DNA of 64,000 nt, taken from positions 186,001 to 250,000 of the forward strand of contig NZ_MPIY01000001.1 in NCBI RefSeq assembly GCF_001953355.1, given 5' to 3'. The notes below the pieces were generated by a model. It was given only the letters and a program-made list of their open reading frames with translations. It made no database searches and had not been told where the DNA came from. Of the stretch, positions 60,968 through 64,000 are shown piece after piece (position 1 is the first letter of the stretch; every line of letters starts with the position of its first letter). Position numbers and translations under genes: made by a program. This DNA is from Polynucleobacter sphagniphilus (GTDB lineage: Bacteria > Pseudomonadota > Gammaproteobacteria > Burkholderiales > Burkholderiaceae).

Positions 60968-61843
60968 TTAGGCTTTTGCCTTTACAGCCGCCTTTTTCTT
61001 TTTAGCCGGCGCAATGGCCTTAACTGACTTTTTTCCTTTGGTCATACTTAGACTCGGTTTATTGATTGGCACCAAGCCCATTTTCTTTGCAGGTGCCGAG
61101 ATAGAGCCACCCGGCGTGCTAGTTGACCAAGTGGGTTCTGCAATGGAGTTAAATGCAGACCGCAATTTTTCTCCCCAAAGCTGATGAATCATCTGGAAGT
61201 AGGGGTTGGATTCATCCAGGGTGACGAGCTTATTGGGTTTTAAGGAGTTCTTCTCATACACCAATAAATCAAGTGGTAGGCCTACGGAAATATTACTGTT
61301 GAGCGTTGAGTCCATTGAAATCAGGGCACACTTAGTTGCTAGGTCTAGTGAGGTATCAAAGCCCAGGACGCGATCTAGGATGGGTTTGCCATACTTAGAT
61401 TCACCAATTTGGAAATAACAAGTCTCAGGGGTAGCTTCAATAAAATTACCAGCTGAGTAGATGTTAAAAAGTCTTGGTCTTTCGCCTTTAATTTGACCGC
61501 CAAAAATTAAATTGCAATTAAAGTCAATGCCGGCTTTTTCTAGGGCCGCATGATCTCTCTCGTAGACCTGCTTTACTGCATCTCCAACCACTACGGCTGC
61601 ATCATGCGCATTTTTGATATTCCACAAGTTTTTGCCATTGAGCAATTGACCCTGAAGCAAGATTTCTTTTATGGCCTGAGTAATAGCTAAATTTCCAGCA
61701 CTCATCAGCGCAAAAAATCGATCGCTGCTTTGAAACAATGACATCTTTCGAAAGGTGCCGATCTGGTCAACGCCAGCATTGGTGCGTGTATCAGATAAAA
61801 AAACTAAACCATCCTTTAGGCAAAGCCCAACACAATATGTCAT
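60968..61843 (-). CDS. Anbu-type proteasome-like peptidase with lysine-rich tail
   Basis: Ntn-hydrolase of the Anbu (ancestral beta subunit) family, related to HslV and 20S beta subunits. MTYCVGLCLKDGLVFLSDTR matches Anbu; after removal of Met1 the nucleophile would be Thr2, with Asp18 and Lys33 in the usual positions of the Thr-Asp-Lys active site. The core spans about 1-250. The last 39 residues form a tail with 13 lysines (ending AKKKKAAVKAKA), an extension I would not expect in Anbu. GAAGGGG lies 7 bases before the ATG. It is the last gene of an operon with transglutaminase-like, alpha-E and ATP-grasp genes. No ATPase partner such as HslU is nearby; the substrate is unknown. Confidence 0.9.
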   Translation of the reverse strand: MTYCVGLCLKDGLVFLSDTRTNAGVDQIGTFRKMSLFQSSDRFFALMSAGNLAITQAIKEILLQGQLLNGKNLWNIKNAHDAAVVVGDAVKQVYERDHAALEKAGIDFNCNLIFGGQIKGERPRLFNIYSAGNFIEATPETCYFQIGESKYGKPILDRVLGFDTSLDLATKCALISMDSTLNSNISVGLPLDLLVYEKNSLKPNKLVTLDESNPYFQMIHQLWGEKLRSAFNSIAEPTWSTSTPGGSISAPAKKMGLVPINKPSLSMTKGKKSVKAIAPAKKKKAAVKAKA

Positions 61844-61895
61844 ACAACAACCCCTTCAATTAATTTCCTAGAATTATCTCTTAATTGTGGGGTAC

Positions 61896-62693
61896 TTAGT
61901 CCAACTTCTGAATAGAGATATTGGCGGTTAATTCTTCACCGCCGCCGCCTGATCGAACGCCCTTCACAGGGGCGGCAGAGTAGTAGTCGCGGCCAATTGC
62001 TAGGCGAATATGGCGTGCGTCTACTAAGCAGGCATGAGTGATGTCTACGCTGTGCCAGATACCTTTGGCGATGTCACTACAGAAATCAATCCAAGCATGG
62101 CTGGCAAGATTAGGTGATTCTTCTGCAAAGAAATAGCCGCTGACATAGCGTGCTGGAATATTGGAGGCGCGACAAATGCTAAGCATGACGTGGGCGTGAT
62201 CTTGGCAAACTCCTGAGCGCATTGCAAATGATTGAGCTGCTGTGGTTGCGAAATTAGTTTGTCCTGGATTGTATGTAATGGCTCCTTGTACTGCTCCAGC
62301 AAGCTTTAATACTGCATCCACCGAGTTTGTCTTTGGAAGGTGTGGGGCAAAATATTCGAGCATGGCTTCAGAGGGCTCAGTCAAATTAGTTTGCTGTAAA
62401 AGATAAAAGGGCGACACAGCCTTAGCATCATCGATAAACTCAGATGCCCCTTCTGTTTGTACTTCACCCTCGGCTTCAATCATCATTGAGGTGTATGGCG
62501 ACTCCTGAACAAATACGCTATAGGTGTTACCAAAAGCGTCTATTGAGTTGCTGGCCTTGATGGGCGTGCTAATTTTCCACTTATCAATTTTTTGACCTGC
62601 CACATTGGCAGGCGTTAGGCGCAACTCTTGAATCGAGTAGTGAACCGGTGTTTCATAGCGGTACTCGGTGCGATGGCGAATTTTTAGGTGCAT
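61896..62693 (-). CDS. Transglutaminase-like cysteine peptidase-fold protein
   Basis: A 265-residue cytoplasmic protein. It has the bacterial transglutaminase-like N-terminal domain (about 1-80, IRHRTEYRYETPVHYSIQEL) and then the transglutaminase-like core with a full catalytic triad: Cys163 in SGVCQDHAHVML, His199 in ASHAWIDF and Asp217 in HSVDITH. No signal peptide is seen. It may act as a peptidase or amide-forming/breaking enzyme on a peptide made by the ATP-grasp partner. It is 6 bp after the alpha-E gene and 52 bp before Anbu. Confidence 0.92.
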   Translation of the reverse strand: MHLKIRHRTEYRYETPVHYSIQELRLTPANVAGQKIDKWKISTPIKASNSIDAFGNTYSVFVQESPYTSMMIEAEGEVQTEGASEFIDDAKAVSPFYLLQQTNLTEPSEAMLEYFAPHLPKTNSVDAVLKLAGAVQGAITYNPGQTNFATTAAQSFAMRSGVCQDHAHVMLSICRASNIPARYVSGYFFAEESPNLASHAWIDFCSDIAKGIWHSVDITHACLVDARHIRLAIGRDYYSAAPVKGVRSGGGGEELTANISIQKLD

Positions 62694-62699
62694 ATGTTC

Positions 62700-63677
62700 T
62701 TAGGCTACCGCTAAAGGTATGAGATAAGCATTACTAAATTCATCAGCAATGTGGTTGATGCGAGCCAAAAATTCCTCAATATATTCTTCAAGACCCTGGG
62801 CAAATACTTCATCGATATCGGAATAATCTAAATTGGCCTTGAGCTTTCCTAGCAGACGTTCAATTTCTTTGGATTGAGCATTTTTGATTTCCGCTACCAA
62901 TGGAATGAGTTCATTTACGCAGCAAACCAAGGAGCGCGGCATTTGTTTATTGAATATCAATAATTGAGCGACTTGTTTGGGTGTTACTTGATCAGAATAG
63001 ATTTGGCGGTAGATTTCAAAAGCGGAGACGGAGCGTAGTAAGGCAGCCCAGTGATAAAAATCAAAGAACTCACCATCAGTGCCATCATCCGCGCGCTTCT
63101 CATTTGCGCCTAAAACCTTTGCGCTCTGACCTTCATATTTAGTTTGCAAGATGCGGGCGGTATTGTCTGCGCGCTCTAAAAGAGTTCCCACATTCATGAA
63201 GTAGAAAGATTGATTCTTAAGCATGGTGCCATGCATTACCCCTCTAAAGAGGTGGCAGCGATGTTTTACCCATTCGAGCAATCTACTAGGGTCGGCTGAG
63301 TTACGCGCCTCCACAATCCTCTGCCATTCGAGCCAAGTGGTATTTTGAGTTTCCCATACTTCCGAGGTAATTTTTCCACGTATAACGCGTGCATTCTCAC
63401 GGGCGGCAAATAGGCACGAAGCAATGCTAGAGCTATTACTGGTTTCATAAATCATAAAATCCAATACATTCTCACGATTGATCACTTCATATTTTGCTAA
63501 AAAACTATCTTCGAGTTTGGAGATGGTCAGCAATTTTTTCCAGCTTTGCTCTAAAAATTCTTCGGGCTGGGGAAGCAATGACGTCTGGTGATTGACATCA
63601 AGCATGCGCGCGGTATTCTCAGCGCGTTCTGTGTAACGGGCCATCCAGTAAAGGCAATCAGCGGTGCGACTCAGCAT
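62700..63677 (-). CDS. Alpha-E domain protein
   Basis: A 325-residue all-helical protein of the alpha-E (DUF403) family. It begins MLSRTADCLYWMARYTERAE and NTARMLDVN, the family hallmark, with a repeat-like GTLLERADNTARILQTKYEG in the middle. The biochemical role is unknown; the family is nearly always encoded next to a circularly permuted ATP-grasp enzyme and a transglutaminase-like protein, as here. It starts 20 bp after the ATP-grasp stop. Confidence 0.92.
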   Translation of the reverse strand: MLSRTADCLYWMARYTERAENTARMLDVNHQTSLLPQPEEFLEQSWKKLLTISKLEDSFLAKYEVINRENVLDFMIYETSNSSSIASCLFAARENARVIRGKITSEVWETQNTTWLEWQRIVEARNSADPSRLLEWVKHRCHLFRGVMHGTMLKNQSFYFMNVGTLLERADNTARILQTKYEGQSAKVLGANEKRADDGTDGEFFDFYHWAALLRSVSAFEIYRQIYSDQVTPKQVAQLLIFNKQMPRSLVCCVNELIPLVAEIKNAQSKEIERLLGKLKANLDYSDIDEVFAQGLEEYIEEFLARINHIADEFSNAYLIPLAVA

Positions 63678-63697
63678 ATTTTTTCTTCGCTCTTCTT

Positions 63698-64000
63698 TTA
63701 TTCTTCTAGAACCCAGGTGTCCTTCGTGCCGCCACCTTGTGAGGAATTCACCACCAAGGAGCCTTCTTTTAAGGCAACTCGTGTTAATCCGCCTGGAACC
63801 ATTTTGATGGTTTTTCCTGAGAGGACAAATGGACGTAAATCAATATGACGAGGTGCTACACCAGACTCAACAAAGGTTGGGCAAGTCGATAGCGCTAAGG
63901 TAGGCTGAGCAATGTATTTATCTGGATTGGCTAGCAAGTGAACTCTAAATTCCTCAATCTCTGCTTTGGTAGATGCTGGGCCAACCAACATGCCGTATCC
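63698..64000 (-). CDS. Circularly permuted ATP-grasp type 2 protein, C-terminal part (partial)
   Basis: The frame runs from the window edge to a TAA at 63698 and shows the family's C-terminal block: [44 protein letters not shown] and [13 protein letters not shown]. This is the end of a circularly permuted ATP-grasp (DUF404/407) protein, a predicted peptide or amide ligase. About 100 residues are visible of an expected 450-500; the 5' end lies outside. It is the first visible gene of the Anbu operon. Confidence 0.9.

Follow-up and report, generated by a model that had tools for sequence, protein, structure and literature searches.

Anbu, a proteasome relative that occurs in many bacteria, received its name in 2008; the cited Anbu papers report no substrate for it in their available text. 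The closest described systems are the Anbu operons of Pseudomonas putida (PP_2685-2688), Yersinia bercovieri and others, which, according to the accessible parts of Fuchs 2017 and Piasecka 2018, hold the same four families, in the same order and with the same catalytic residues, as the locus that is the subject of this report; induction by nitrogen limitation is reported there for the P. putida operon. Gene set and order had already been published (Valas 2008 and Iyer 2009, by citation), as had the idea that the set synthesizes and degrades a peptide or tag (Iyer 2009, as cited in excerpts of PMC5666114 and PMC6376114). The present locus is an Anbu operon at the end of a 64,000-nucleotide stretch of Polynucleobacter sphagniphilus DNA (hereafter the window, G000:C1:186001-250000, from a genome of 2.04 Mb in 17 contigs). 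Its gene set, its gene order and the ligase-plus-peptidase idea are thus known, and the new finding is its palindromic control region: compared with the P. putida and Y. bercovieri operons, it lacks a sigma-54 box and has, at -80, a palindrome of the NtrC type. Its Anbu is also longer than the solved Anbus by a Lys-rich tail of some 50 residues that follows the aligned part. I propose, at a probability of about 0.45, that in this lineage the known Anbu operon is a module for nitrogen starvation in which amide-linked peptides or tags are formed and broken down again. Nitrogen control, which the initial annotation of the window had not considered, says more than any other clue. By title or start of abstract, one open-licence literature collection showed no paper on Anbu or NtrC of Polynucleobacter. 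The operon genes lie as follows in the window.

63698-64000, minus strand: 3' part (last 100 codons) of the ATP-grasp gene, circularly permuted type, operon gene 1
62700-63677, minus strand: alpha-E (PF04168), all-helical, 325 residues, profile match E 5.6e-97
61896-62693, minus strand: transglutaminase-fold protein (Bact_transglu_N + Transglut_core), Cys163-His199-Asp217, 265 residues
60968-61843, minus strand: Anbu, proteasome-family N-terminal-nucleophile protein (Thr2, Asp18, Lys33), 291 residues
60968-61129, minus strand: Lys-rich C-terminal tail of Anbu, residues 239-291 plus stop, net charge +13

The promoter region of the operon falls outside the window. The ATP-grasp gene runs on to window-equivalent base 65143 and, as the initial annotation had anticipated, is found whole beyond position 64000 (L003:4699-6144, 481 codons counted from the first ATG), with smpB upstream on the same strand. 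Many relatives align from residue 9 onward only, which makes Met12, a conserved residue, more probable than the first ATG as the start. An alignment of the interval between smpB and the ATP-grasp gene in 18 genus loci brought out the palindrome TGCAC-N7-GTGCA, located here about 80 bp before the operon (L003:6175-6191, equivalent to 65174-65190 of the window and to C1:251174-251190). A scan for the palindrome that tolerated a single mismatch covered up to 250 bp ahead of the conserved ATP-grasp Met in 108 of 121 loci, with expectations derived from dinucleotide shuffles; the loci left out had no usable ATP-grasp start or less than 150 bp upstream. The palindrome was present in 60 of the 62 Polynucleobacter-like loci, defined by more than 84% ATP-grasp identity (0.57 expected), and the best site stood at -77 to -82 in all 62. 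Seven of 46 further Burkholderiales loci also had it (0.62 expected); these 46 include the genus members L053-L055 and the P. rarus / P. kasalickyi group, L118-L120, which has weaker versions at -79 to -80.

Elsewhere in the 2.04 Mb, the exact palindrome recurs at two places, giving three in total against none for the reversed control pattern. One copy precedes a porin-like gene (PF07642), about 3.4 kb from glnK-amtB, and the other lies about 200 bp before the adaptor gene of a resistance-nodulation-division (RND) efflux system, beside a CzcA-type pump; the porin-like and RND adaptor genes may be further NtrC targets. Of the versions with one mismatch, two precede glnA and another lies 126 bp ahead of glnK. 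The core GCAC-N7-GTGC was counted six times in 67 kb of own-genome DNA selected around genes of interest, for about one expected by base count. One of the six precedes a second, related gene cluster, described below as the sister cluster, and the core stands before this cluster in 8 of the 8 genomes that have it, once per 601-bp stretch in the seven other genus genomes.

L190:7450-7466 and L190:15758-15774 (G000:C17): the two further exact palindromes (porin-like PF07642; RND efflux adaptor)
L189:4455-8472 (G000:C9), L192-L194, L196, L197 and L239-L253: NtrC loci

By sequence comparison, then, the Anbu operon, glnA and glnK-amtB have a putative operator in common. The palindrome resembles what I take to be the NtrC consensus and has the look of an NtrC operator, given that copies of the same core or with one mismatch precede glnA, glnK and the sister cluster. 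It could instead be the operator of another regulator, or a structural element of the boundary between smpB and the operon. Room for this is left by the palindrome being unenriched before the operon outside Burkholderiales (1 of 40 phylum loci, 0.57 expected). The copies before glnA (twice), glnK and the sister cluster argue against it, as does the palindrome retained at -81 in two loci where smpB was not found upstream (L045 and L096); nor is the palindrome followed by a T run as a terminator would be. I consider this alternative quite unlikely, and NtrC control of the operon in this genus well supported on sequence grounds.

The genome has the regulator that such a site calls for. Its only strong PF00158 protein is NtrC, encoded in a glnA-ntrB-ntrC row and scoring 638 bits against TIGR01818 (cut-off 559); its NtrB scores 306 bits against NF008293 (cut-off 240). 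Sigma-54 (PF04552), by contrast, gave 0 matches in this genome, and the control matched in 4 of 14 named genomes. Within the genus, sigma-54 is absent from 14 of 22 genomes, including this one, and present in 8. The GAFTGA loop reads GAFPGA in 17 of the 21 intact genus NtrC proteins, again including this one, and GAFTGA in the other 4; the twenty-second genome, G094, was left out of the count for its broken ntrC. Sigma-54 is missing in 13 of 17 GAFPGA genomes as opposed to 0 of 4 GAFTGA genomes (Fisher p 0.012, uncorrected for relatedness). This genome would therefore house a sigma-54-free NtrC system that keeps the loop. That an NtrC lacking GAFTGA can act at sigma-70 promoters is known (PMC10274813, in part available). 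The NtrC proteins of Caulobacter and Rhodobacter capsulatus, according to the same partial source, are tied to glnA and expected to act without sigma-54, as here; their loop is deleted, however, whereas here it is kept with one substitution, in a genome with no sigma-54 match.

Two promoter forms emerge when the sigma-54 box (-24/-12, TGGCAC-N5-TTGC, at most one mismatch) is scanned for in the same way, 350 bp being covered in the phylum loci. The box precedes the operon in 17 of 40 phylum loci (0.87 expected), a set that was drawn from 63 non-genus loci with adjacent Anbu and alpha-E and that includes near-identical members as well as two whose start is poorly placed. Of the 46 further Burkholderiales loci, 16 have the box (0.98 expected), and of the 62 Polynucleobacter-like loci none does (0.73 expected). 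Two genus genomes show combined states: G163 has a perfect sigma-54 box at -60, together with GAFTGA and sigma-54, and G188 has GAFTGA and sigma-54, yet the -80 palindrome and no box. G127 and G156 carry neither palindrome nor box. Judging from these four genomes, the promoter may have switched first and the regulator and sigma factor later, an order that is itself inferred.

Published expression data bear on the same point. In P. putida on nitrate versus ammonium, the log2 changes were 4.44 for PP_2685 ('bacterial proteasome, beta subunit') and 3.99 for PP_2688 ('circularly permuted ATP-grasp type 2'), and the PP_2688 promoter responded 3.7-fold to nitrogen depletion, according to the available portion of PMC8050072. 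In the accessible part of PMC7801951, PP_2686-2688 of the wild type under nitrogen limitation show values of 11 to 15, taken here as fold changes, and are assigned to NtrB/NtrC.

Several observations weigh against the proposed nitrogen-starvation module. In the same part of PMC7801951, PP_2686-2688 still reach 14 to 20 in what is presumably the rpoN-mutant column, and PP_2685, the Anbu gene itself, reaches only 1.12 in the wild type; these values speak against strict sigma-54 dependence in that P. putida strain. At one mismatch or fewer, 23 of the 40 phylum loci have no sigma-54 box, to which must be added the want of palindrome enrichment outside Burkholderiales given above and the finding of neither palindrome nor box in G127 and G156. 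The 62 Polynucleobacter-like loci contain at least four doubled contigs (L038/L098, L042/L104, L044/L105 and L046/L107), recognized by their identical lengths, and the shuffle controls ignore relatedness. Finally, the available text of PMC6376114 and PMC5666114 reports neither peptidase activity of Anbu nor a stable complex with its partners in vitro.

The sister cluster offers a view of the ligase genes apart from Anbu. On contig C3 of this genome (L004), a transglutaminase-like (TGase-like) gene, a fused ATP-grasp/alpha-E gene (867 residues) and a gene for a TGase-DUF2126 protein (1131 residues) lie together without Anbu, and the cluster is found in 8 of 22 genus genomes, as judged by PF08379 counts. 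Because ATP-grasp and alpha-E are fused there, the two proteins of the Anbu operon are suggested to work as one enzyme. The cluster is likened to I35_5080-83 of Burkholderia cenocepacia, which, as far as the accessible text of PMC5491218 goes, is dependent on NtrC and sigma-54 and has ATP-grasp, alpha-E and TGase domains homologous to those of the Anbu operon but no Anbu, the kinship with L004 being read from printed domain names only. L004 has the operator core of the Anbu operon, the ATP-grasp/alpha-E fusion and the DUF2126 protein. In Derxia lacustris and two metagenome-assembled genomes of Burkholderiales (L140, L150 and L151), the Anbu operon adjoins a cluster of the ATP-grasp-alpha-E-fusion/DUF2126 type; in L150 and L151, there is no TGase-like match between alpha-E and Anbu.

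A cluster of this kind without Anbu would also agree with a pathway that has a small molecule or peptide and no protein target, the ligase making an amide-rich reserve or an osmotic or redox peptide and Anbu serving as its amidase. The nitrogen-type palindrome fits this alternative, and so does the name of the ATP-grasp ortholog in the Protein Data Bank (PDB), 3n6x (E 2.6e-217), a putative glutathionylspermidine synthase; likewise the available part of PMC6376114 describes no activity on standard proteasome peptides. Anbu nevertheless retains the full catalytic set of the proteasome type, its ring form has been published, and no such compound is known. I hold this alternative to be unlikely, though it deserves to be taken seriously beside the proposed module, which would accommodate either a peptide or a tag.

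The initial annotation had stated that the gene set recurs across bacteria. Anbu was searched for with the window protein as query and alpha-E with PF04168. Anbu matched in 85, alpha-E in 132 and both in 84 genomes of a phylum sample of 249 (Fisher p 2e-30), and in 136, 166 and 135, respectively, of a family sample of 200, counts that are uncorrected for relatedness and in which the single-protein query may miss distant Anbu. ATP-grasp matched in 136 of the 249 phylum genomes (133 above cut-off), a list that by eye consists of the alpha-E genomes and four weaker matches. Recurrence thus stands, 84 of 85 and 135 of 136 Anbu genomes having alpha-E, but linkage is looser than the annotation implied. 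Of the 83 phylum genomes in which both were placed, 66 have Anbu and alpha-E on one strand and no more than 5 kb apart; up to 17 of the 83 have them unlinked, three of these within 5 kb on opposite strands, and 17 is an upper bound among the matches listed, which mostly give one alpha-E place per genome. Dependence also appears to run one way: Anbu depends on its partners, and alpha-E often stands without an Anbu match (48 of 132 phylum genomes). In the genus sample of 22 genomes, ATP-grasp, alpha-E and Anbu matched in all 22. Loss of partners independently of each other in relatives, which the annotation had named as evidence that would count against a common system, is mostly not seen, since 21 of the 22 hold all three and a TGase-like gene (the exception is G094); in two of the 22, however, G127 and G156, the TGase-like gene is outside the operon, with one PF08379 match elsewhere in each.

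In G094 (L051, L191), frameshifts interrupt ATP-grasp, alpha-E and the TGase-like gene, and a stop at residue 238 of Anbu takes the place of the tail. The ntrB and ntrC genes of this genome are broken as well, while glnA and most neighbours are intact, so that 5 of 6 genes of the operon and ntrB/ntrC are broken versus 1 of 12 neighbours (Fisher p 0.004). Because opdA, beside ntrC, is broken too and the genus includes endosymbionts with decaying genomes, this co-decay is a weak functional link, general decay being under way. A second case of operon decay is L064 (G023), in which the ATP-grasp and Anbu genes are each split over several frames and alpha-E and the TGase-like gene are matched in one piece, alpha-E with one TAG.

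These distributions also bear on the possibility that the four genes are neighbours by inheritance only, with no common pathway. Published pull-downs that gave no specific complex (PMC6376114, available part) would agree with it, as would the TGase-like genes outside the operon in G127 and G156 and the four loci L126, L139, L147 and L149, where no partner match was found in the DNA examined around Anbu. Yet Anbu is almost never found in a genome without alpha-E, even where the two are unlinked, and in G094 three genes are frameshifted together with a shortened Anbu. Inheritance alone is therefore very improbable, and by the sequence counts the four genes do belong together.

As for the proteins themselves, the end of the window is confirmed to hold an intact ATP-grasp > alpha-E > transglutaminase-fold > Anbu operon on the minus strand. 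The initial annotation had described four close same-strand genes with intact active sites, and both parts of that description hold: the open reading frame listing of the window gives gaps of 52, 6 and 20 bp in the order Anbu, TGase-like, alpha-E, ATP-grasp, and the residues in question prove invariant among relatives. Thr2/Asp18/Lys33, a set of the Thr1/Asp17/Lys32-33 type, are conserved in 47 of 47 aligned Anbu sequences, and Cys163/His199/Asp217 in 71 of 71 aligned TGase-like sequences (the window protein and 70 of 73 relatives, three being left out as another paralog). Pfam profiles match at E 4e-166 (CP_ATPgrasp_2), 2e-20 (Bact_transglu_N), 2e-17 (Transglut_core) and 9e-6 (Proteasome). 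Alpha-E reaches 325 bits against PF04168 (cut-off 20.8), covering positions 1-294 of the 294-position profile, and its AlphaFold model is helical throughout, with a mean confidence (predicted local distance difference test, pLDDT) of 84.9. A PDB sequence search at E<=0.05 found no relative of alpha-E, and a fold search gave no match above the helical-bundle background, a result that does not demonstrate a new fold.

The operon has smpB, ratA-like and ppsA-like genes as neighbours. An acquired or chance cluster was considered and rejected: in the stretches fetched, smpB is directly upstream in 18 and ppsA behind in 16 of 22 genus genomes, and the operon therefore appears to be an old resident of the genus. 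Near the operon, scans for sigma-70 promoters and terminators stayed at chance level, with 8 promoter-like sites for 8.9 expected and 6 terminator-like sites for 5.5 expected.

Anbu has five PDB sequence matches at E<=0.001, the best at 5.3e-83, all of them from Anbu structures, if one counts those of the series that go by the name 'Peptidase' and a single designed Anbu. BPH (known from Cupriavidus, a relative) and HslV belong to the proteasome family like Anbu; neither chain is among the five, and both identities were rejected for this gene. The best named relatives are from Polynucleobacter, the top match having 83% identity over residues 1-290. The Lys-rich residues 239-291 extend past the aligned part of every solved Anbu matched and open with a better conserved stretch, roughly IxxPAKKMGxVPI. 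In the Anbu model, residues 236-291 mostly have a pLDDT below 50, so the tail is probably disordered, and the model is uninformative on its packing. The net tail charge reaches +8 or more in 18 of the 22 genomes of the genus and, among named loci of at least 70% identity, in 45 of 46 (the 46th ends at a contig edge), compared with 0 of 34 named loci below 70%, 0 of 16 others of the family and 1 of 27 in the wider sample; these thresholds were set after inspection and the named set overlaps the genus set. A role for the tail as tether to a polyanion or as amine acceptor is a guess. Those of the genus loci examined that have the Lys-rich tail also have the TGase-like gene beside Anbu, a co-occurrence for which common descent accounts, and a functional tie was considered and set aside. 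Two side observations concern tail and operon in other taxa. A shorter basic tail of 35 residues, net +8, occurs in L172 (G207), from another class of the phylum, and is possibly a convergent gain; and a 3.4-kb contig filed as Thermoflexus hugenholtzii (L121, CALPOM020000191.1) carries a Polynucleobacter-like Anbu operon with 62% Anbu identity and looks mis-binned.

The tail enters into the explanation that the initial annotation had put forward, protein tagging (Iyer 2009, by citation), in which ATP-grasp and alpha-E add a peptide tag to proteins, editing of the tag falls to the TGase-fold enzyme, and the tagged proteins are degraded or stripped of their tag by Anbu. A Lys-rich tail offers amines, two probable amide-forming enzymes are encoded in the same operon, and Anbu is the sole PF00227 match of the genome (the E. 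coli control matched), so that no HslV was found. However, among the listed operon neighbours there is no gene for an AAA+ unfoldase, in keeping with the annotation's remark that Anbu has no known ATPase partner; the available portions of PMC6376114 and PMC5666114 report no tag, tagged protein or peptidase activity; and alpha-E without an Anbu match in 48 of 132 genomes implies that degradation by Anbu is not the core job. Tagging in this strict sense is thus doubtful, to about the same degree as the small-molecule pathway.

The nitrogen-starvation module would operate as follows. NtrB phosphorylates NtrC under nitrogen shortage, as is established for the family, and by analogy would do so here. 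NtrC is predicted to bind the palindrome, some 80 bp ahead of where ATP-grasp starts, and to activate a promoter of the housekeeping type, since the genome has no sigma-54. The four genes would be produced together, as their tight same-strand spacing and co-retention suggest. ATP-grasp and alpha-E, in line with the sister fusion, would form one amide-ligase unit joining amino acids or a peptide to an acceptor, and the transglutaminase-fold cysteine enzyme would transfer or trim the ligase product. The open ring of Anbu would then cut that product, the set as a whole building and recovering amide nitrogen. Anbu probably acts last, because genomes often retain its partners where no Anbu matched, yet hardly ever retain Anbu where alpha-E is missing. 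From family knowledge and gene order I infer both the chemistry and the direction in which it runs. A more far-reaching version, which I regard as a long shot, is that the Polynucleobacter nitrogen switch has been rebuilt without sigma-54: the GAFPGA NtrC would be a plain activator of housekeeping promoters from -80, with both ATP-grasp/alpha-E clusters in its core regulon; the Lys-rich tail of Anbu would be its own amine acceptor or a tether for the conjugate; and ligase, TGase-fold enzyme and hydrolase would form a cycle that builds and recovers amide nitrogen.

With the regulatory evidence and the tail, a known operon becomes a variant worth bench testing. A control region that its sequence links to the nitrogen regulon, with two promoter forms across lineages, points to the condition under which the substrate of Anbu would appear, and the long-open Anbu question can be put to the test in common laboratory strains. 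For comparison, the sister cluster, which shares the operator core, provides an Anbu-free version of what would be the same chemistry. A separate point of interest is what the apparently sigma-54-free NtrC may tell about the way regulators switch sigma-factor partners.

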